NCBI GenBank assembly: GCA_031292455.1
Contig: JARLHC010000151.1
Location: forward strand, 1 to 64,000
DNA: 64,000 nucleotides
Source of the DNA: Ignavibacteriaceae bacterium
Lineage (GTDB): Bacteria; Bacteroidota; Ignavibacteria; Ignavibacteriales; Ignavibacteriaceae
Direction of reading: 5' to 3'
Shown: piece by piece, positions 53,851 through 64,000 of the stretch
Numbering within the stretch: position 1 is the first letter of the stretch
Layout: every line of letters begins with the position of its first letter
Program-made: the position numbers and the translations under genes
Notes under the pieces: model-generated
Told to the model about the DNA's origin: nothing
Seen by the model: the letters and a program-made list of their open reading frames with translations, nothing else
Databases searched by the model: none

Positions 53851-55161
53851 TTATTTCGTTTTATACGTCTTCATGAGCCATTCGGCAACCGCCTGAGCTT
53901 CATTTGGTCTTAGTCCTGGATTAGGCATCGGGGGATAATCAGGATTCTTTTTAGAAGGATTCCTTATGAATGCAACCAGTTGATCTAGTTTCCCTTCATA
54001 TTTGGGAAGGGTTTGTTTGTATGGAGGCCCTACTATTTTATGGTCGAATGAATGGCAGGAGGAACATATATTCTTAAAGATTTGTTCACCATTTGCAGCG
54101 GCCATTACTTTGTTTTCACCTGTTATCTCTTTAAGGTATTCGGTATACTTTGATGCAAGTATAACTGAATTTAGCTTTGTGGCATTTCCCATAGCAAGCT
54201 GGTCTTTTACAATAACCCCGAACATTGAGAAGATAAGTACATAGAAAACGGGACCGCTCATCTTCACATCTGAATTTCTGATCATTGAATAAAGGAAATG
54301 ATAGGCAGCAAATATTAATAATATTGCAAGTGTAGAATAAGTGAAAACTGCTCCGCTCAATGCATTTGACGGAAGCGCTATTATATCAAAGGTAAGAAAG
54401 AACGGCTGAATCAAAGCACCAGTAAATGTAATGCGTAATGCCGTTTTTTTAACAAAGGTCCGGTAATTCTCATCATCTGTTTTTTTGCCTCCATCCCAAT
54501 AGAAAAATACAAATAATATCGCTCCGCCTGTAACGGCAAAAGCCGCAGAAAGGAACTGGAGGAACCTCGCAATAACTTCAATCGAAAATAGAGGATATAA
54601 AGAATTGGATACAGCTGCAACATATAGAAATAATGCTATAAACAAAAATATCAAACCATATCTGCCGGTGCGTGTACCAAGAGCTCTGCTCCCATCCCTG
54701 TAATTCTTTATCAGCTCACTGTTGTTATCATCTTCAGGCACAATGCTCTTAATTGTCTCGAATAGCCCACTGAAGATCACAGAATACCTATAAGTATATA
54801 TCAGTATAACTCCGATAGCAGTAAATATAAATGCAAACACCAAATAGTTTATGGATGGGGAATCAGTTGAATGGAATAGCTGTGCAAATACAAGTATTGA
54901 TGTCAATAAGGGAATAATCCCCAATATTATCCCCATGCTTTTATTTATCGTCAATGTCTCAATTACATCACGTGCAAAGCGAAGGAATAGAGGATTCGTT
55001 TCTCTGAGCCCTTTTTTCCGGTAATAAACAGATAAAACAGTACCTCCGAACAAAACACTTATAAAAGGAATAAAAAGAAACATTATAAGCATTAAAATAT
55101 AATGCAGAAGCTCTATATGTTCAGATGATTGAGGAAGTACCAGATTATCAAGAAAATTCAT
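53851..55161 (-). CDS. Multi-span membrane protein with C-terminal monoheme cytochrome c domain
   Basis: 436 residues. About eight to ten hydrophobic spans lie between residues 20 and 325 (for example 23-46, 75-96, 104-124, 170-190, 203-222, 243-262, 270-292, 305-322), then a short cytochrome c domain with C366-S-S-C369-H370 and an axial Met in the PPMPNPGL loop. I do not recognise the membrane part as a known cytochrome b, NrfD or oxidase subunit. It is the last gene of the oxidase operon, 13 bp after ctaB, so electron transfer to or from the oxidase, or assembly, is likely. Confidence 0.8.
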   Translation of the reverse strand: MNFLDNLVLPQSSEHIELLHYILMLIMFLFIPFISVLFGGTVLSVYYRKKGLRETNPLFLRFARDVIETLTINKSMGIILGIIPLLTSILVFAQLFHSTDSPSINYLVFAFIFTAIGVILIYTYRYSVIFSGLFETIKSIVPEDDNNSELIKNYRDGSRALGTRTGRYGLIFLFIALFLYVAAVSNSLYPLFSIEVIARFLQFLSAAFAVTGGAILFVFFYWDGGKKTDDENYRTFVKKTALRITFTGALIQPFFLTFDIIALPSNALSGAVFTYSTLAILLIFAAYHFLYSMIRNSDVKMSGPVFYVLIFSMFGVIVKDQLAMGNATKLNSVILASKYTEYLKEITGENKVMAAANGEQIFKNICSSCHSFDHKIVGPPYKQTLPKYEGKLDQLVAFIRNPSKKNPDYPPMPNPGLRPNEAQAVAEWLMKTYKTK

Positions 55162-55173
55162 TTAGTCGTTCCC

Positions 55174-56046
55174 TTACAAATAAATTTTAATCATTTTATC
55201 GATTGAGAGCAAAAAGACAATTATTAATGCGAATATATTTATCTCTCTGAAGGCAAATCTGAAGGATAGTTTGTCGGGTCCCGGCTTTAATAATTTTACT
55301 GCTTTAATTGTAAGCCAGATACCTGCAGACAAAAGCGCAAAGCTTATAACTGGATTTCTCACAATCCCGAAAAGCGGCAGCATTAAAGAAGTAACTACGG
55401 TAGCTGCTATCCACATAAAGATAATTCTTGAGAACTGGTCCCTGCTGAATAATTTCGAAAAGGTTGGGAATCCCGCTTTCTCATAATCCTTTCCAAGTAC
55501 AGACAGGAGAAGCCAGAAATGAGGAATCTGCCAGATGAAGAAGAAAAAGGAAATAATAATTATTTGAGGATCCATTAAACTCCCCCCTGCACTCACCCAG
55601 CCCACTGCCGGAGGGATAGCTCCTACCATTGATCCGGGTATTATCGCCAGAGGATTGATTTTCTTTAAAGGAGTATAGAGACCGTTATACCAGAATAAAT
55701 TTAACAAGCTCAATGCACCTGCTAAAATTCCCCCGCTGAGCGTTAGCAATATGAACCCTGCCGTTACCAATGTAATTGCGATCAGCAGTGCATTTAATGG
55801 AGATATCCTGCCTGAAGGAATGGGACGGTTCCTGGTTCTGTCCATTAGTGCGTCAGTTCTTCTTTCCTGGTAGTGGTTTATTGCAGCCGAGCCGCATGCT
55901 ATAAAAAGAATTCCCAGCGCAGGTAGAATGACCCCGTAGTTTATTTCACCGGCTGCACAGATGTAGCCAAGTATAGTAGTTACAGTAACAAAGATTGTAA
56001 TCTTTATTTTGGTCAGCTCTGACAATATTTGTATATATTTTTTCAA
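55174..56046 (-). CDS. ctaB: Protoheme IX farnesyltransferase (heme O synthase)
   Basis: 290 residues, about nine membrane spans. It attaches farnesyl to heme b to give heme O, the precursor of heme A. The UbiA-type motif NHYQERRTDALMDRTRNRPIPSGRISP (about residues 57-83; DALMDRTRNRP is the metal-binding core) is intact, and GAIPPAVGWVSAGG forms the second. It follows oxidase subunit II by 18 bp. No ctaA is seen in the window. Confidence 0.94.
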   Translation of the reverse strand: MKKYIQILSELTKIKITIFVTVTTILGYICAAGEINYGVILPALGILFIACGSAAINHYQERRTDALMDRTRNRPIPSGRISPLNALLIAITLVTAGFILLTLSGGILAGALSLLNLFWYNGLYTPLKKINPLAIIPGSMVGAIPPAVGWVSAGGSLMDPQIIIISFFFFIWQIPHFWLLLSVLGKDYEKAGFPTFSKLFSRDQFSRIIFMWIAATVVTSLMLPLFGIVRNPVISFALLSAGIWLTIKAVKLLKPGPDKLSFRFAFREINIFALIIVFLLSIDKMIKIYL

Positions 56047-56712: not shown

Positions 56713-57015
56713 TTACCTTAGACTTAAAAAAGAATAATCAGCAAATAACAATGTGAATGATATTATAACAAACAAAAGTGCTACCGCTACAAATACACGG
56801 AACGCTTTCATTTCAAGCCTCAGGTGCATAAAAATAGTTAATACCAGGTACGATTTTACCGATGCAATGATCAGCGCGGCTGCTATAGTAAAAGCTCCGA
56901 AGTTAATCCCTGCAACCGCAACTGTAACTCCTGTCAGTGCCAGCAGTGATATCCAAACCCATATATATATCGTATAGCTGTGTGCGTGTTCTATATTTGA
57001 ATGATGTTTATCCAT
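56713..57015 (-). CDS. coxD: Cytochrome c oxidase subunit IV (bacterial type)
   Basis: 100 residues with three membrane spans (about residues 14-32, 38-58 and 73-94). The pattern YTIYIWVWISLLALTGVTVAVA, then VKSYLVLTIFMHLRLE, matches bacterial subunit IV (CtaF/CyoD type). It stabilises the oxidase; it carries no redox centre. Sits between subunits III and II. The Lys-His-His start (MDKHHSN) is a short cytoplasmic end. Confidence 0.88.
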   Translation of the reverse strand: MDKHHSNIEHAHSYTIYIWVWISLLALTGVTVAVAGINFGAFTIAAALIIASVKSYLVLTIFMHLRLEMKAFRVFVAVALLFVIISFTLLFADYSFLSLR

Positions 57016-57024
57016 TTAGCTTCC

Positions 57025-57645
57025 TCAGGTAATAAGATAAAATAAGGGGAATAAAAAGATCCAGATTATATCAACAAGGTGCCAGTACAATCCTGCTGCT
57101 TCAAGTTTTACATAATTATCATGTGTTATAACATTTCTGACTGTAAAGCGGGTCATAACACTTATAAGTACCATGCCGATAATAACATGTAATGCATGTA
57201 GCCCTGTCATTACATAATATAATGCGAAAAATAATCTCCGGCCTGATTCCATGGCAAGGTATTCATCGGACCCAGGATAGATTCCATGATGTATCTTGGT
57301 CATCCACTCAAAATATTTATTAACTAAAAATGCAACTGCAAGCAGGATAGTGCAAAGCTGGAAAAAGACAGATAATTTTTTATTATTCCTCTGCAGTGCA
57401 GTTATTGAAAGCGCCATCGTCAAACTGCTTGTTAAAAGAATAGCAGTATTAAAAGTTCCTACAAGTACATTTAATTCTTTTGCTGCCACATGAAAGTCTG
57501 CCTGATGCATAAACCTGTATACAGAATAAAGGAAGAAAAGACCTCCGAATAACAGAAGTTCGGTAAACAGAAAAAGCCACATTCCCATTCTGCTTCCAAT
57601 ATCGTCCCGGTGCACATGCACAACTGCTTGTTCCTGAGTGCTCAA
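57025..57645 (-). CDS. coxC: Cytochrome c oxidase subunit III
   Basis: 206 residues, five membrane spans, the short form. Recognised by GMWLFLFTELLLFGGLFFLYSVYR, LTSSLTMALSIT, YYVMTGLHALHVIIGM and WHLVDIIWIFLFPLFYL. It shields the oxygen pathway of subunit I. Start overlaps the end of subunit I by 4 bp, and subunit IV follows 9 bp on. Confidence 0.95.
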   Translation of the reverse strand: MSTQEQAVVHVHRDDIGSRMGMWLFLFTELLLFGGLFFLYSVYRFMHQADFHVAAKELNVLVGTFNTAILLTSSLTMALSITALQRNNKKLSVFFQLCTILLAVAFLVNKYFEWMTKIHHGIYPGSDEYLAMESGRRLFFALYYVMTGLHALHVIIGMVLISVMTRFTVRNVITHDNYVKLEAAGLYWHLVDIIWIFLFPLFYLIT

Positions 57646-59306
57646 TGAATTATCTCCTCCGGTAGTTCTTCGGTTTCATTTTGTTTGTATTCATAGGGAG
57701 GGGTGCTGATCATAGGTATCTTATCAAAATTATCATGCGTGGGCGGAGTTTCGATTGTCCACTCCAAAGTCTCCCCTCCCCAGATATTTCTTTCGGTAAC
57801 AACTTTCCCTTTACGCAATCCCTGTATAAGATTAGTGAACATGATTATCATCCCGGTTATGAGAATCCATGATCCGACTGTGGAAATCTGGTGGTAGATA
57901 GTATATTCAGGAAGATAATCATAATATCTCCTCGGCATCCCCAGCCAGCCCATTACAAACATTGGAAAATAAAGAGTATTGAATCCGACAAAAATAATCC
58001 AGAAAGCTACCTTTGCTCTTTTTAAATTATACATCCTTCCGAACATTTTAGGAAGCCAGTAATGAAGAGCTGCAAATATCCCCATTCCGGTTCCGCCAAA
58101 CATTACATAATGGAAATGTCCGACAATAAAAGATGTATCTGTAAGATGGATATCTACAGATAATGCTCCCTGAATAAGTCCGGTAAAACCTCCAATTGAA
58201 AAGAGGAATATAAATGCAAGCGCAAACAGCATCGGCGGATCAAGAGAAATAGAACCTTTATATAGAGTGGCCGTCCAGTTGAAAACTTTAATCGCACTTG
58301 GAATAGCTACCATAAATGTAAGGAATGAAAAGATGAACTGGCCCGTATCACTCATCCCGACCGCGAACATATGATGCGCCCAGACAAGCGAGCCGAATAA
58401 GGCGATTCCAATACTGGAAAATGCAATAAACTTATACCCGAATATAGTTCGTCTTGCAAAAACAGGTATTATTTCCGAGATAACTCCCATAGCCGGAACT
58501 ATCATAATATAAACTGCCGGATGGGAGTATATCCAGAATAGGTGCTGAAAAAGAATAGGATCGCCTCCAAGTGCGGGGTCAAACAACCCTACACCGAACA
58601 CTCTTTCGACTATAATAAGTAAAAGTGTAATACCTATAATAGGTGTGGCAAGAACCTGTATCCATGCTGTAGCATATAATGACCAGGCAAACAATGGCAT
58701 TTTGAACCATCCCATACCGGGGGCTCTTAACCTGTGAATTGTTGTTATGAAATTCAGTCCTGTTAGTATTGAAGAGAACCCGAGTAAAAATGCAGCCGAT
58801 CCGGTTATGATAACATTTGTCGTTGTTCTTACACTGTATGGAATATAGAAAGTCCAGCCTGTATCCGCAGGTCCTCCCGGCATCAGGATAGAAGCAATTA
58901 TAAGAACTCCTCCGGTTACATATAACCACCAGGAAAGTAAATTAAGCCGTGGAAAAGCAACATCCTTTGCCCCCAGCATAATCGGCAGAAAGAAATTTCC
59001 GAATACTGCAGGCAACCCCGGAATAACAAATAAGAAAATCATTATTACCCCGTGGAGCGTAAAGAATTCATTATATACCTGGGGTTCAACAATAGTTTTA
59101 CCTGGAGTAAGGAGTTCAAGTCTTATTAAGAATCCGAATGTAACTCCTAATGCAAAAAAGCAGAGCAAGGCCATTAAATAAAGAATACCGATTCTTTTAT
59201 GGTCGGTTGATAATATCCATGACCTGATGCCTTTATATTTCCCCTTATATTTCAGGAAACTAACATGATCGTTAGCTGCAGTAGCAGCATCATTATCCAT
59301 AAACAA
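57642..59306 (-). CDS. coxA: Cytochrome c oxidase subunit I, A2-type heme-copper oxidase
   Basis: 554 residues, 12 membrane spans. Ligands: H85 (FFTLHGVIMIF) and H399 for low-spin heme, H397 for the high-spin heme (VGHFHYVMFGG), Cu-B H262 with H311-H312 (VWAHHMFAVG), and the cross-linked Tyr266. The helix VI motif is Y260-S-H-P-A-V-Y266, that is YSHPxV, which marks the A2 subfamily that lacks the D-channel Glu. It pumps protons while reducing oxygen. It follows the SCO gene by 11 bp and overlaps subunit III by 4 bp. Confidence 0.96.
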   Translation of the reverse strand: MFMDNDAATAANDHVSFLKYKGKYKGIRSWILSTDHKRIGILYLMALLCFFALGVTFGFLIRLELLTPGKTIVEPQVYNEFFTLHGVIMIFLFVIPGLPAVFGNFFLPIMLGAKDVAFPRLNLLSWWLYVTGGVLIIASILMPGGPADTGWTFYIPYSVRTTTNVIITGSAAFLLGFSSILTGLNFITTIHRLRAPGMGWFKMPLFAWSLYATAWIQVLATPIIGITLLLIIVERVFGVGLFDPALGGDPILFQHLFWIYSHPAVYIMIVPAMGVISEIIPVFARRTIFGYKFIAFSSIGIALFGSLVWAHHMFAVGMSDTGQFIFSFLTFMVAIPSAIKVFNWTATLYKGSISLDPPMLFALAFIFLFSIGGFTGLIQGALSVDIHLTDTSFIVGHFHYVMFGGTGMGIFAALHYWLPKMFGRMYNLKRAKVAFWIIFVGFNTLYFPMFVMGWLGMPRRYYDYLPEYTIYHQISTVGSWILITGMIIMFTNLIQGLRKGKVVTERNIWGGETLEWTIETPPTHDNFDKIPMISTPPYEYKQNETEELPEEIIH

Positions 59307-59317
59307 CTACCTCTTGA

Positions 59318-60106
59318 CTATATTTTCTTTTTGGGTTTGACAACTAAATAAACTACAAATAACGTAACAAAGATTAATATACCTGCTCCGAATACTCTTG
59401 TAATATTAAATACATAAGTTCTCCCTTTGGGGTCATAACTAAAACAATATTGCACCAGTTTAGCCATTGTCTTTGTCTGCTCTCCGCGGGAAGTTTCTAA
59501 CATTGCCATCTTAAAATCAAAAGGAAGTATATTGAAACCTCCTTTTGACGAAACATCTGGATATATATACCTGCAGATCTTCCCTTCTTTGGTTACAAAA
59601 ACAAATCCTCCCGAATGTATAAAATTGGCTCCTTCCCTTTTGAAATAAAATCCGGCGGCATTTGAGAGCCTTCTTATATTTGTACTGTCACCTGTAAGGA
59701 AGTCCCATGAATCAAGTGGAAATTCTTTCTGAGAAAAGCCAAGAATAGTTTTTTTCTTATCGGCAGCATCAGAAGGCTTTTCCCTTTCATCCATGCTGAT
59801 TGTGACTATATTATAATCCTCTCCGGGTAGAAGATCGACTTTGCCTGTAACTGTGGCCAATTCGGTAAGTATGGGGCTGCATATTCCGGGACATTTATAA
59901 TACACAAATGCAATTAATGTCGGTCTTTTTACCAGATCCTTTAATACGACCTTATTACCTTCTTCATTATAGAATACTACATCAAGAGGAATATAAGTCC
60001 CCAGTTTCTCTACTATTCCTACTTCTTCGGAAGCTTTTTCAGCGAAAGATACATTGGCTGAAAAGATTATTAGAATTATTGAGAATATCTTTATAAGATT
60101 TTTCAT
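59318..60106 (-). CDS. SCO1/SenC family copper chaperone
   Basis: 262 residues. A signal peptide (residues 1-22, ending FA) is followed by a thioredoxin-fold domain with the copper ligands C72-P-G-I-C76 (YYKCPGIC) and H164 (ANFIHSGGFVF), and a C-terminal membrane anchor (GAGILIFVTLFVVYLVV). It loads copper into the Cu-A site of subunit II. The C-terminal anchor instead of an N-terminal one is common in this lineage. It lies directly between the cytochrome c gene and subunit I. Confidence 0.93.
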   Translation of the reverse strand: MKNLIKIFSIILIIFSANVSFAEKASEEVGIVEKLGTYIPLDVVFYNEEGNKVVLKDLVKRPTLIAFVYYKCPGICSPILTELATVTGKVDLLPGEDYNIVTISMDEREKPSDAADKKKTILGFSQKEFPLDSWDFLTGDSTNIRRLSNAAGFYFKREGANFIHSGGFVFVTKEGKICRYIYPDVSSKGGFNILPFDFKMAMLETSRGEQTKTMAKLVQYCFSYDPKGRTYVFNITRVFGAGILIFVTLFVVYLVVKPKKKI

Positions 60107-60121
60107 TTTACTTCTTATCTT

Positions 60122-61051
60122 TTAGAGTACATTTTTTAAGTAAACATAAATCAGGTCCCAATCATTATCAGTTAGATTGAACACCTGCCTGTTAAAACCA
60201 TTCTGGTTTACATTATCTACAATTGTGTTTATAAAAAGCTGTTCATTTTCTTTCCAGTCTAAAGATCTTTCTAAAGAAACCAATGCCTGAAATTTATTTT
60301 GAGTAATTTTATCAAATATTGCAACTGCAGGATTAGAATAATTCCCAGATAAAGTACTCATAATCCCGGTAATAACCTGTACAGTGGAATCATTCTCACT
60401 AATAACAAATTTAGCCGCTGCAGCAACAGGTATCTGGGTTGGAATCTCTTTTCCTTTTGACAAATTATACAATTGATCAAGCACAGTAAGATCATCGGGA
60501 GAATCCTGCGATGGATTAGGTACAAATGTAGTTCTTATATAATGGGCAAGCCCGAATTTTTCTTCCGGCGTCAGATATTCATAGGAAGCCATCCCTGATC
60601 CCGGAATACCGTCCTGTAATGTTTTATAAATCTGAGACAATTTGGATCCGTTTTTCCATCCTTCCTTTGAAGTAAAATTCCTTGGCTTGGGATTTAAAGA
60701 AGCAGCCGTTGGTCCGTCTCCTTTTCCTTCAGTACCATGGCATGAACTGCAGACGGTTGTAAATATATTTTTTCCTTTTGCAATCAGATCCGGTGCCGGC
60801 TCTCTGATTTTCGTTATATCGATAGGAGGAATTGTTTTTGACTGCATGACAGGTAAATCAGACTGTGCAGTGGTGTCGGGAAGAGGAGGATCAACATTCT
60901 GCCGGGATATATAATTCAGATTAATGACATATAAAAAACCAAGAATTGTAACCAGGATAAACATATAAGGATAAACCAAACCAAAAACCTTCCCCGGCTC
61001 TGATATTAACTTGTCTATTTTATTTTTAATAATGTTATTCAATTTGAGCAT
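60122..61051 (-). CDS. Membrane-anchored monoheme cytochrome c in the ACIII-oxidase operon
   Basis: 309 residues. One N-terminal membrane anchor (about 28-46), a linker rich in Pro (50-85), a class I cytochrome c domain with C101-S-S-C104-H105 and an axial Met in GIPGSGMASY, then a C-terminal helical domain of about 100 residues that I do not recognise. Its place between the ACIII genes and the SCO/oxidase genes, together with a subunit II lacking its own heme, suggests it shuttles electrons from ACIII to the oxidase. That role is inferred. Confidence 0.88.
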   Translation of the reverse strand: MLKLNNIIKNKIDKLISEPGKVFGLVYPYMFILVTILGFLYVINLNYISRQNVDPPLPDTTAQSDLPVMQSKTIPPIDITKIREPAPDLIAKGKNIFTTVCSSCHGTEGKGDGPTAASLNPKPRNFTSKEGWKNGSKLSQIYKTLQDGIPGSGMASYEYLTPEEKFGLAHYIRTTFVPNPSQDSPDDLTVLDQLYNLSKGKEIPTQIPVAAAAKFVISENDSTVQVITGIMSTLSGNYSNPAVAIFDKITQNKFQALVSLERSLDWKENEQLFINTIVDNVNQNGFNRQVFNLTDNDWDLIYVYLKNVL

Positions 61052-61067
61052 TATATTAATTATTTAA

Positions 61068-62258
61068 TCAAAGACGGAAGTCCAGGCCTTTTTGCAACTT
61101 CGGATCTCTTAAGGGAATCAGGTTATGCAATTTTACTCCCCTGTTAAATACTACAATTATTAAACCTGCTGCCCCGATCGGGAAAACGATATCCAGCCAG
61201 CTAAAAGTATATACTCTTCCTTCTCCATAAAAACTGGGCATTATAAGCCAGTATAGGTCTATATAATGTGCAACCAAAATCCATATGGCAATAAATTTTA
61301 ATCTTGCAGGATTGGTCTTTGAAGGAAAAGATAACAACGCTCCGAATGGAACTATAAAATGAGTTACAATTACTGCAAGGGAAAGAAATGACCAGCCGCC
61401 AGTCCATCTGTGCATAAACCAGAATGTTTCCTCCGGTAGATCGGCATACCAGATAAGCATGTATTGGCAAAAAGCGATATAGGCCCAGAAAACTGTAAAA
61501 GCAAAAAGCAAAGTTCCAAGGCTGTAATAATGATCAGAATTAACTTTCGGATGAAGATAGCCGTTCTCTTTCAATTTTATCGCAATAAATGTAACTGCTG
61601 CCAATGAGCTCCAGACAGCCCCTGAGAAGAAATAAACGCCGAATATTGTAGAGAACCAGCGGGGTTCAAGACTCATAAGCCAGTCTACTGCAGTTAATGT
61701 TATTGTAAATGCAAATACCGGCATAAAGATTCCGGAAAAAACAATGCTATTTTTGGTTAATGCCTGATCTCCCGTGACATCCTGCTTTCTTGAATTCATT
61801 ATAAATTTCAGATAAAAGGCAGTCCATATAAGAAGTATTACAAATACCCTTGTTATAAAGAATACAGAATTTAAGAAGGGCGCTTTTCCTTGCAGAATTG
61901 GATCGTTCGAAACCAGTTCAATGTGTGTCCAGCTGAACAAATTCTTCATATTCAGCAACAGAGGGATAACAAGTATAATAAGAAGCGGGAGCAATGATGA
62001 TAAGAATTCGGCTATTCTTCTAAAGGGAACGCTCCAGTCGGCTCCTGCCAGATATTCAATCGCAACCAGGAATAATGAACCGATACCTATGCTGACCAGG
62101 AACATAAATGCCGGTAAATAGCTCATCGCAGCTCTCTGAGGATCTGTAATAAAACCCAAAGTTCCAAATACTATTCCGGCAGCAAGAAACACTAAACCTA
62201 TGGTTCCAACTTTTGCAGGGAGTTCTTTTTTAATATATCCGGAATCGTTATTGAGCAT
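61068..62258 (-). CDS. actF: Alternative complex III subunit ActF (quinol:cytochrome c oxidoreductase)
   Basis: 396 residues with ten membrane spans. The NrfD-like/ActF fold is recognised from AGIVFGTLGFITDPQRAAMSYLPAFMFLVSIGIGSL, GADWSVPFRRIAEF, LSLEPRWFSTIFGVYFFSGAVWSSLAA and HPKVNSDHYYSLGTLLFAF. ActF is a membrane subunit of the menaquinol:cytochrome c oxidoreductase; it carries no heme. It overlaps the actDE gene by 11 bp. The C-terminal PLRDPKLQKGLDFRL is a typical cytoplasmic tail. Confidence 0.93.
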   Translation of the reverse strand: MLNNDSGYIKKELPAKVGTIGLVFLAAGIVFGTLGFITDPQRAAMSYLPAFMFLVSIGIGSLFLVAIEYLAGADWSVPFRRIAEFLSSLLPLLIILVIPLLLNMKNLFSWTHIELVSNDPILQGKAPFLNSVFFITRVFVILLIWTAFYLKFIMNSRKQDVTGDQALTKNSIVFSGIFMPVFAFTITLTAVDWLMSLEPRWFSTIFGVYFFSGAVWSSLAAVTFIAIKLKENGYLHPKVNSDHYYSLGTLLFAFTVFWAYIAFCQYMLIWYADLPEETFWFMHRWTGGWSFLSLAVIVTHFIVPFGALLSFPSKTNPARLKFIAIWILVAHYIDLYWLIMPSFYGEGRVYTFSWLDIVFPIGAAGLIIVVFNRGVKLHNLIPLRDPKLQKGLDFRL

Positions 62259-63411
62259 TTTTTCCAGACTCCTTGTTAATCGAAGTTAAATCAGTGGCTT
62301 TTGCATTCTTAGCTCTCTGCAGAACTCTTAAATAATTTATGATAGCCCAGCGTTCTTCTCTGCTAACCTGGTATGCATAAGAAGGCATTGCATTCTGTCC
62401 GTTTGTTATAATATGATAGATTCTGCCGTCAGGATAATTCCTCACTTTATCGGAATGAAGAGTCGGAGGATTCGGGAATTGTCCTCTTAAGCGGCTGTCT
62501 CCATCGGCTGTATTTCCATGGCAAGGGGAACAAAAAGTTAAGAATTTCCTTTTCCCGAGAGCAAGGATTTCTTCTGTCGGCAACAAAGGATTTGACAGGA
62601 CTTCTTTAGGTTCAGTTTGTCCTGAATACGGATAAGGTATAAATCCCCTTGCAACAGTACCCTGAACAGGTTTCCTCATGCCAAACCCATCAGCGAAATA
62701 ATCGCTCTTTTTCTGAGGCAGGTACTTATCCTGTTCGCTCATCCATCCATAAGGAGTAATATATAGAAGTTTATTCAGGGTTATATAAGTCGACACGGAA
62801 ACTACAAGTGCTACAACCGCCAATAAGATCATAAACCGCGGTTGGAATAAGGCGTAAACTTCTTTTGGGGGATAATATATTAATTCGGTTGATGATGGAT
62901 TAAGACTTTTAAGAAAATCCTTCGTTCCGTTAATATCAAACAATGGATCTTCAGTTTCGATTACGAGACCATATTTATCCGTTGAAACTGCTTTCATATA
63001 TTCTGAATCATGAAGTGGATGGCTGTTTGCCGGCAATTTGAAATATACAGCAAGAATTCCAAGAAATGTTGATACTGCACCCAGCAGTACAGTAGTTTCA
63101 AAAGTAATAGGTATAAAAGCAGGAAGGGCAAAGAAAGGTTTTCCTCCTATTACCATTGGATAATTTATTGATAAAGTCCACCACATAAATAACAGAATAA
63201 ATGCGGCAGAGGAAAATCCGAAGAACAAAGTAACATAACCAACAGTAGTGGGCTTTAGTCCCATTGCCTTATCCATTCCATGTACTGGATATGGAGTATT
63301 AACATCAAATTTCTTATAACCCGCTGAAGCGGTCTTTCTTGCCGCATTGATTATCAAATCAGGAGTATCAAATAATGCGGCAATGCCAAATAGCTTTTTA
63401 TTGTTATCCAT
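62248..63411 (-). CDS. Fused ActD-ActE: DUF3341 membrane subunit joined to a monoheme cytochrome c
   Basis: 387 residues. Residues 1-175 are the DUF3341/ActD domain (LFGIAALFDTPDLIINAARK, DVNTPYPVHGMDKAMGL; spans at about 55-78 and 95-122). A third span (about 191-212) leads into an ActE-like part: the GTVARGFIPY motif, then C294-S-P-C297-H298 and an axial Met in NGQNAMPSYAYQV. In well-studied complexes (Rhodothermus, Flavobacterium) ActD and ActE are separate chains, ActE being lipid-anchored; here the fusion supplies the anchor. It overlaps actC by 1 bp and actF by 11 bp. Confidence 0.92.
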   Translation of the reverse strand: MDNNKKLFGIAALFDTPDLIINAARKTASAGYKKFDVNTPYPVHGMDKAMGLKPTTVGYVTLFFGFSSAAFILLFMWWTLSINYPMVIGGKPFFALPAFIPITFETTVLLGAVSTFLGILAVYFKLPANSHPLHDSEYMKAVSTDKYGLVIETEDPLFDINGTKDFLKSLNPSSTELIYYPPKEVYALFQPRFMILLAVVALVVSVSTYITLNKLLYITPYGWMSEQDKYLPQKKSDYFADGFGMRKPVQGTVARGFIPYPYSGQTEPKEVLSNPLLPTEEILALGKRKFLTFCSPCHGNTADGDSRLRGQFPNPPTLHSDKVRNYPDGRIYHIITNGQNAMPSYAYQVSREERWAIINYLRVLQRAKNAKATDLTSINKESGKNAQ

Positions 63412-64000
63412 TATTCACCCCCTATTTGCTGAATATGATTACTCCCGTCGTGGGATGGCTGCGCTCCATGTATTACAGCTTTAACTTCAGCCATAGAAAC
63501 TACCGGTAGTGTCCGTGTAAATAATAAGATCAAAGTAAAAAATAAACCGAAACTTCCCAGAAGAATACCTAAATCAACCAGAGTAGGTGTATACATCCTC
63601 CAGCTTGATGGAAGGAAATCACGATGGAGGGATGTAACAATTATTACAAATCTCTCGAACCACATTCCTACGTTTACAAAGACTACTATAAAGAGCATTA
63701 CCGGAATTGATCTTCTTATTTTTCGTATCCAGAATAATTGGGGAATTAAAACATTGCAGCTGATCATTGTCCAGTATGCCCATGCATACGGGCCAAATGC
63801 ACGGTTCAGGAATACAAACTGTTCAAAATGATTTCCGCTGTACCATGCCATAAATAATTCCATCGAATATCCGTAACCGACCATCATGCTTGTTGCAAGG
63901 ACAATCTTATTCATATTATCAAGATGGTTCATGGTTATAATATGTTCGATATGAAATACCTTTCTTAGAAATACAAGGCATGTAACTACCATAGCAAATC
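63411..64000 (-). CDS. actC: Alternative complex III subunit ActC (NrfD-like), C-terminal part
   Basis: Partial: the frame is open through the right edge, so about the last 196 residues are seen. Four or more membrane spans, with [70 protein letters not shown] and [19 protein letters not shown], all ActC hallmarks. ActC holds a quinol site and interacts with the Fe-S subunit ActB, which should lie just beyond the window along with ActA. The cytoplasmic C-terminus ends [14 protein letters not shown]. Confidence 0.93.

Follow-up and report, generated by a model that had tools for sequence, protein, structure and literature searches.

A cytochrome c-bearing membrane protein of probable bd-oxidase descent in the ACIII/haem-copper oxidase gene cluster of an Ignavibacteriaceae bacterium

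Oxygen reductases of the haem-copper and bd types are regarded as distinct families with no relation to each other. In Nitrospirales, CydAA' oxidases have been reported directly downstream of ACIII (PMC12342949). According to a review, the contacts between ACIII and the oxidase in the supercomplex of Flavobacterium johnsoniae are made through CoxIII (PMC8361435). The closest described counterpart of the protein considered here was reported from Melioribacter roseus. MROS_0033, in the row MROS_0033-0045, was called a class I soluble cytochrome c551/c552 (PMC3534657, PMC5492636) and was detected exclusively in aerobic cells, where CoxI, CoxII, ActC and ActDE were found as well (PMC5492636). In the Figure 6 legend of the second report, c551/552 is drawn feeding the A-type and cbb3 oxidases, and the fusion of ActD to a cytochrome c (ActDE) has been described for M. 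roseus too (PMC5492636). Across the literature searched, MROS locus tags appeared in these two reports only, and among the papers listed there was none on a bd-like protein encoded within a haem-copper/ACIII cluster in the class Ignavibacteria.

The window, the whole stretch of 64,000 nucleotides analysed here, comes from an Ignavibacteriaceae bacterium (contig JARLHC010000151.1). It carries a row of oxidase and ACIII genes (Table 1) that includes the gene of a membrane protein with a C-terminal cytochrome c, called protein X below. The open reading frame of X starts with ATG and runs from 55161 to 53851. The gene order behind X, confirmed by ORFs and Pfam, is ctaB, cox2, cox4, cox3, cox1, sco, the 309-aa cytochrome c, ActF, ActDE and ActC. 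An initial annotation of the DNA had placed X in line with the oxidase genes and 13 bp after ctaB; the place is correct, but the gap measures 12 bases. The cox1 product contains YSHPAVY, which we take to be the A2-type motif. No fused cytochrome c domain was found in the window Cox2 by Pfam search, and no Pfam family matched the ActF-like protein above cut-off.

Table 1. Features of the oxidase and ACIII gene row, with positions in the window
Feature	Position	Strand	Evidence
Protein X (436 aa): membrane part of eight helices and C-terminal cytochrome c	53851..55161	-	ORF; Pfam; AlphaFold2 (mean pLDDT 89.2, pTM 0.78)
X membrane part, residues 1-345, predicted CydA fold without the checked bd haem ligands	54127..55161	-	VIA-align and profile match to A'
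X class I cytochrome c domain, residues 355-431	53869..54099	-	PF00034 E 5.7e-07; structural match to 351c
X haem c attachment motif CSSCH, residues 366-370	54052..54066	-	C, C and H in 117/121 relatives, 4 gaps
X Met412, probable distal haem c ligand	53926..53928	-	M in 115/121 relatives, 6 gaps
ctaB, haem O synthase (UbiA family)	55174..56046	-	PF01040 E 4e-46
cox2, Cu-A subunit, 214 aa	56064..56708	-	PF00116 E 1.1e-21; TIGR02866
cox4	56713..57015	-	PF03626
cox3	57025..57645	-	PF00510
cox1	57642..59306	-	PF00115 E 6.4e-152
SCO1/SenC copper chaperone (sco)	59318..60106	-	PF02630
309-aa monohaem cytochrome c with N-terminal hydrophobic stretch (label ActE)	60122..61051	-	PF00034 E 1.7e-14
ActF-like ACIII membrane subunit	61068..62258	-	Named by gene order, between ActD and the 309-aa cytochrome c
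ActD fused to cytochrome c (ActDE)	62248..63411	-	PF11821 E 1.9e-56; cytochrome c at 285-361
ActC, C-terminal part	63411..63992	-	ORF; gene continues past the window, continuation read in L185

The published gene order of M. roseus matches X-ctaB-cox2-cox4-cox3-cox1-sco, and X is the 33rd ORF from base 1 in genome G080; MROS_0033 is therefore taken to be the ortholog of X by gene order. The two occupy an identical place in an identical gene row. The difference lies in the description: MROS_0033 is called soluble in those papers, whereas the ORF of X has eight predicted membrane helices. X had been annotated as an undescribed-looking architecture. This holds in part only: the presumed ortholog is in print as a soluble cytochrome, its membrane part having been overlooked.

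X is not a chance reading frame, since its membrane part is matched in 88 of 97 related genomes and the dN/dS of X was 0.024-0.145 in 14 close pairs from clusters other than L068 and L069 (see below). Eight of the 97 have no X match of any kind, and all eight lack ActD and COX2. In G059 a short cytochrome match was the only one found; ActD and COX2 are present there, and cox2 lies at a contig edge. X is present, with ActD not matched, in three genomes (G037, G045, G051). Of 395 genomes of the phylum, 65 gave a match at E up to 1e-12. Fifty-eight of these belong to the window's class, and among the seven outside it only G147 matches the membrane part. A survey of gene neighbourhoods, as proposed in the initial annotation, found ctaB directly upstream of X in 76 of the 80 loci surveyed, which lie on named contigs and are the best 80 of 214 confirmed relatives (two rows with a tandem second cytochrome c were retained in the counts). 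X goes with ACIII/oxidase clusters and is not scattered independently of oxidases. Its proposed tie to terminal respiration is supported.

The cytochrome c domain of X is readily assigned. It carries a single CSSCH, as annotated, together with Met412, which we take to be the distal haem c ligand, and its fold resembles that of cytochrome c551 351c (VIA-align Z 10.9, rmsd 1.9, 78 aligned residues); these are the features of a class I cytochrome c. The membrane part is harder to place by sequence. Residues 1-340 had no match over cut-off among the Pfam and NCBIfam models, and in a phmmer search of PDB sequences all hits fell in the cytochrome part. A structure was predicted with AlphaFold2 from alignment A2, comprising the window protein and 55 relatives from named contigs. 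The model places eight long helices between residues 13 and 327, not the roughly ten hydrophobic segments first counted, followed by the cytochrome domain. In a Foldseek search of the PDB, the top matches of the model were cytochrome bd subunits with weak E-values (best 1.0e-03). When the same Foldseek match list was re-scored with VIA-align, ranks 1-10 were all CydA chains (Z 22.5-24.7, rmsd 3.0-3.8, 287-300 aligned), among them 7oy2_C (Z 24.7, rmsd 3.6, 298 aligned) and 5doq_A (Z 24.3, rmsd 3.3, 299 aligned). The scores against ActC (6lod_C; Z 19.1, rmsd 4.4, 283 aligned) and PsrC (2vpw_C; Z 15.3, rmsd 3.8, 228 aligned) were lower. The predicted structure thus shows the cytochrome bd (CydA) fold in the membrane part of X. 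X and CydA share this modelled fold, but X has no direct profile match to CydA, no ligand His and no adjoining CydB. It also has eight helices, compared with nine stated for CydA of M. roseus (PMC3534657).

The family from which X came was sought among the CydAA'-like pairs, whose two subunits are referred to as A and A'. In a locus outside the class (L151 of G147), a CydA-like gene adjoins an X-like gene with a C-terminal cytochrome c. G004 has X in its ACIII cluster and a separate A/A' pair elsewhere (L183), and further A/A' pairs were collected by searches. Profiles were compared by hhalign with the cytochrome domains removed. X matched A' (99.5%, E 1.4e-22 over 299 columns), A' matched A (98.6%, E 5.9e-16) and A matched canonical CydA (96.7%, E 3.8e-10), while the direct comparison of X with canonical CydA was not significant (5.5%); the sequence link between X and CydA therefore runs through A' and A. 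The Pfam CydA model was not matched by A' or A of L151 either. Nine unrelated membrane families (ActC, ActF, cox1, cox3, ctaB, NuoH, NuoL, NuoM and NuoN) all scored below 2% against X, with 0.1% for ActC of these loci and 1.6% for ActF. A tree built from 50 membrane parts sets X apart as one clade, on one side of a branch with support of 100/100. Both the architecture of X and its probable descent from the A' subunit of two-subunit bd-like oxidases are well supported. The membrane part of A' is homologous to that of X over about 300 residues, and the L151 member also ends in a cytochrome c. X differs in having neither the invariant TM1 His nor an A partner, and in sitting in an ACIII/haem-copper cluster. 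The fold and the "soluble" cytochrome of M. roseus were known; what appears to be new is the use of a bd-derived membrane part in a haem-copper/ACIII cluster. The membrane part can accordingly be placed in a known respiratory family, contrary to the initial annotation. That annotation had named a clear match to a known family with an assigned role as a finding that would refute it. Such a match was found for descent; it does not extend to the role, the checked haem ligands being gone.

The TM1 His is invariant in 16 of 16 A' and 10 of 10 A sequences (H24) and presumably corresponds to H19 of E. coli CydA. Among 121 distinct X proteins, the aligned column (position 30) holds F in 96, L in 20, other residues in four and one gap, with His in none. 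The column of the second CydA His (position 202), which we take to be the b558 ligand H186 of E. coli, has His in 7 of 121 X and Q in the window protein. No column of the X membrane part is invariant for His, the best being H15 (104/119). Other positions are conserved: S44 (119/120), Q94 (118/121), P253 (119/121) and Y291 (116/121). Partner A, searched with alignment A3 at E<1e-100, was found in 3 of the 97 related genomes (G004, G024, G086) and was absent at this threshold from the other 94 and from G000. Weaker matches to A occur in G074 and G094 at E ~1e-12, that of G074 being its canonical cydA, and G000 has a separate, ordinary cydAB (L184). The loss of the catalytic partner and of the checked bd haem ligands is shown at the level of alignments and genome searches, and the membrane part of X is probably free of haem b, judging by the two His checked.

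How the cytochrome c of X relates to the oxidase can be approached through cox2. In 50 X loci with cox2, 47 cox2 genes have no CxxCH and three do (L164-L166); in the 80-locus set, which overlaps the first, CxxCH was found in 1 of 72 cox2. A different picture was obtained for 20 loci of the class without X (19 genomes; genus mates G218, G225 and G294, and G204, for which there were no coordinates, were left out). In five of them, each next to ACIII genes, a cytochrome c is fused to cox2; in twelve, a monohaem cytochrome c is encoded immediately upstream of cox2; three have neither. Since cox2 mostly has no CxxCH at X loci and mostly comes with a fused or adjacent cytochrome c at loci without X (17 of 20), the cytochrome of X would be a natural donor to Cu-A. 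The 309-aa cytochrome c is the other candidate donor and could equally feed Cu-A. The arrangement recalls caa3 oxidases, where a dedicated cytochrome c likewise sits at the oxidase side of ACIII, but X clusters put it on a separate, apparently bd-derived membrane protein. Loci L164-L166, in which the two occur together, weaken the view that X is just a stand-in for the Cox2-fused cytochrome c of caa3 oxidases.

Clusters without the oxidase core bear on the role of the membrane part. In five clusters, L043 (G019), L245 (G086), L068 (G096), L069 (G089) and L167 (G016), X stands in a row with ACIII genes, cox3 and a cox4-like gene, and the cluster contains no cox1, cox2, sco or ctaB. The cox4-like gene of L068, L069 and L167 was named by position and size. 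COX2 was not found anywhere in these five genomes. A sixth cluster, L048 (G038), is decayed: its cox1 is gone and its cox2 and sco are shortened. X has no cytochrome c in L068, L069 and L167 and retains it in L043, L245 and L048; L067 was left out of this tendency, its contig ending there so that the lack is apparent only. Between L068 and L069, which belong to one genus, dN/dS was 0.136 for X, 0.052 for cox3 and 0.26 for the cox4-like gene. Purifying selection on an X that has no cytochrome argues that the membrane part functions without a haem of its own and without the oxidase core. A rule tying the cytochrome c of X to the presence of a Cu-A protein was considered and rejected. G019 and G086 keep the cytochrome with neither COX2 nor NosZ, and X of G089 has none though NosZ is present, so that a tendency is all that is left.

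These results are best explained, with fair probability, by X being an A'-derived subunit without a partner that was recruited into the assembly of ACIII and the A2 haem-copper oxidase, where its cytochrome c bridges ACIII and Cu-A. The ancestor of X would be the A' subunit of a two-subunit, cytochrome-c-linked bd-type oxidase. X would have lost its catalytic partner A and the checked haem ligands and would then have been recruited to the ACIII/A2 oxidase assembly. Its membrane part may form, with CoxIII and CoxIV, a bridge module docked on ACIII, and electrons may pass from the ACIII cytochromes by way of the tethered cytochrome c to Cu-A of Cox2, a recipient that here does not have the fused cytochrome c of caa3 oxidases. 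The CoxIII contacts in the F. johnsoniae supercomplex make it reasonable to regard CoxIII, CoxIV and X as ACIII-facing parts. Gene linkage and aerobic co-detection in M. roseus make X a candidate subunit of an ACIII-oxidase supercomplex. An ACIII-bound anchor whose cytochrome c feeds a Cu-A oxidase would fit these data, and the circumstantial support for a bridge is good. For the cytochrome domain, the role first proposed, that of an electron-entry subunit or Cu-A partner, still fits best. Cu-A need not be the sole acceptor, because the cytochrome is kept in G019 and G086.

The main competitor, to which we give perhaps a one-in-several chance, is that X is a plain membrane-tethered shuttle, its membrane part a mere anchor and its acceptors the A2 oxidase, cbb3 and NosZ. 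The published M. roseus scheme with two oxidases fed by c551/552 (PMC5492636) points this way, as do the X in the nos operon of G002 and the retention of the cytochrome in the two genomes with neither COX2 nor NosZ. For a mere anchor, however, a single helix would do, and X has eight, in which S44, Q94, P253 and Y291 hardly vary; nor would a mere anchor explain why the cytochrome-less X of L068 and L069 is under selection. The place directly behind ctaB, with sco in the same gene row, would suit an assembly factor for the insertion of haem or copper into the oxidase, which the initial annotation had also offered. This possibility is weakened to the point of being improbable, since X is kept in the five clusters from which cox1, cox2, sco and ctaB are gone, and no maturase ranks near the top of the structural matches.

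Two further readings take the fold as their starting point, and both seem very unlikely. The CydA fold and the descent from bd-like subunits could mean that X is still a bd-type oxygen or NO reductase, but the TM1 His is lost in every X, no His is invariant in the membrane part and partner A is missing from nearly all related genomes. Alternatively, the membrane part could be an NrfD/ActC relative, a quinone-interacting anchor whose likeness to bd is no more than a shared helical-bundle shape; the VIA-align scores to ActC (Z 19.1) and PsrC (Z 15.3) speak for it. CydA nevertheless gave higher Z at lower rmsd, and the profile match to A' (E 1.4e-22) stands against 0.1% for ActC and 1.6% for ActF.

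A more specific form of the bridge proposal, tentative and in our estimate somewhat short of an even chance, is that X is a haem-free pseudo-oxidase and a fixed part of ACIII. Together with CoxIII and CoxIV it would make up a bridge module, one that outlasts cox1, cox2 and even the haem of X itself. If so, ACIII would once have fed a CydAA'-type oxidase, as is reported from Nitrospirales (PMC12342949); a haem-copper oxidase would then have taken over, with one bd subunit remaining as an electron and docking bridge. The ACIII-linked CydAA' of Nitrospirales suggests, by analogy, such an origin, and no ACIII genes adjoined the bd-like pairs in the loci read within the phylum. In much of one bacterial class, a bd-type protein appears as a regular member of a haem-copper/ACIII gene cluster. 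If X is a supercomplex subunit, it would explain, in a form open to testing, how an oxidase whose Cox2 has no fused cytochrome c receives electrons from ACIII. The clusters that lost the oxidase core and kept cox3, the cox4-like gene and X indicate which components are ACIII's own.

Several other arrangements were seen in the loci read. In L250:2279-12193 and L251:2487-12401, sco-cox1-cox3-cox4-cox2 (with cytochrome c)-ctaB is followed by A'-Rieske-cytochrome b-A-like genes, with a small cytochrome c between ctaB and A' in L250 only; one cluster thus combines a haem-copper oxidase with a bc-type complex and the two bd-like subunits. The order A'-Rieske-cytochrome b-A (fused cytochrome c), a bd-like pair around bc genes, occurs in L249:1373-5904 and L252:8295-12514. 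A' upstream of Rieske and cytochrome b had been considered an orphan, which was rejected on finding the A-like gene after cytochrome b. In the bd-like pairs of L308:7543-11288, L309:7466-11190 and L311:8867-12630, A is about 890 aa long with eight CxxCH, an apparent octahaem extension.

X itself also varies in form and place. A tandem second cytochrome c domain is present in X of L072:4126-5832 and L071:7064-8657. In G002, an X copy lies inside a nos operon and is followed by a DoxX-like gene (L056:8437-9705), and the cox cluster of this genome (L253) has no X. The nosZ of this operon was identified by search; its neighbours are presumably nosL, nosD, nosF and a nosY-like gene. X was found in a nos operon in G002 only, though 43 of the 97 relatives have NosZ over cut-off. 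A second X copy of G026 (L053:8792-10066) is likewise followed by a DoxX-like gene, and its neighbours are taken to be nrfHA-like genes and an Rrf2-type regulator. Two tandem NosZ-like genes (749 and 799 aa), the second with CxxCH, lie in L254:4805-9453, and L152:7975-9483 encodes a fusion of a NosD-like beta-helix protein with a cytochrome c.
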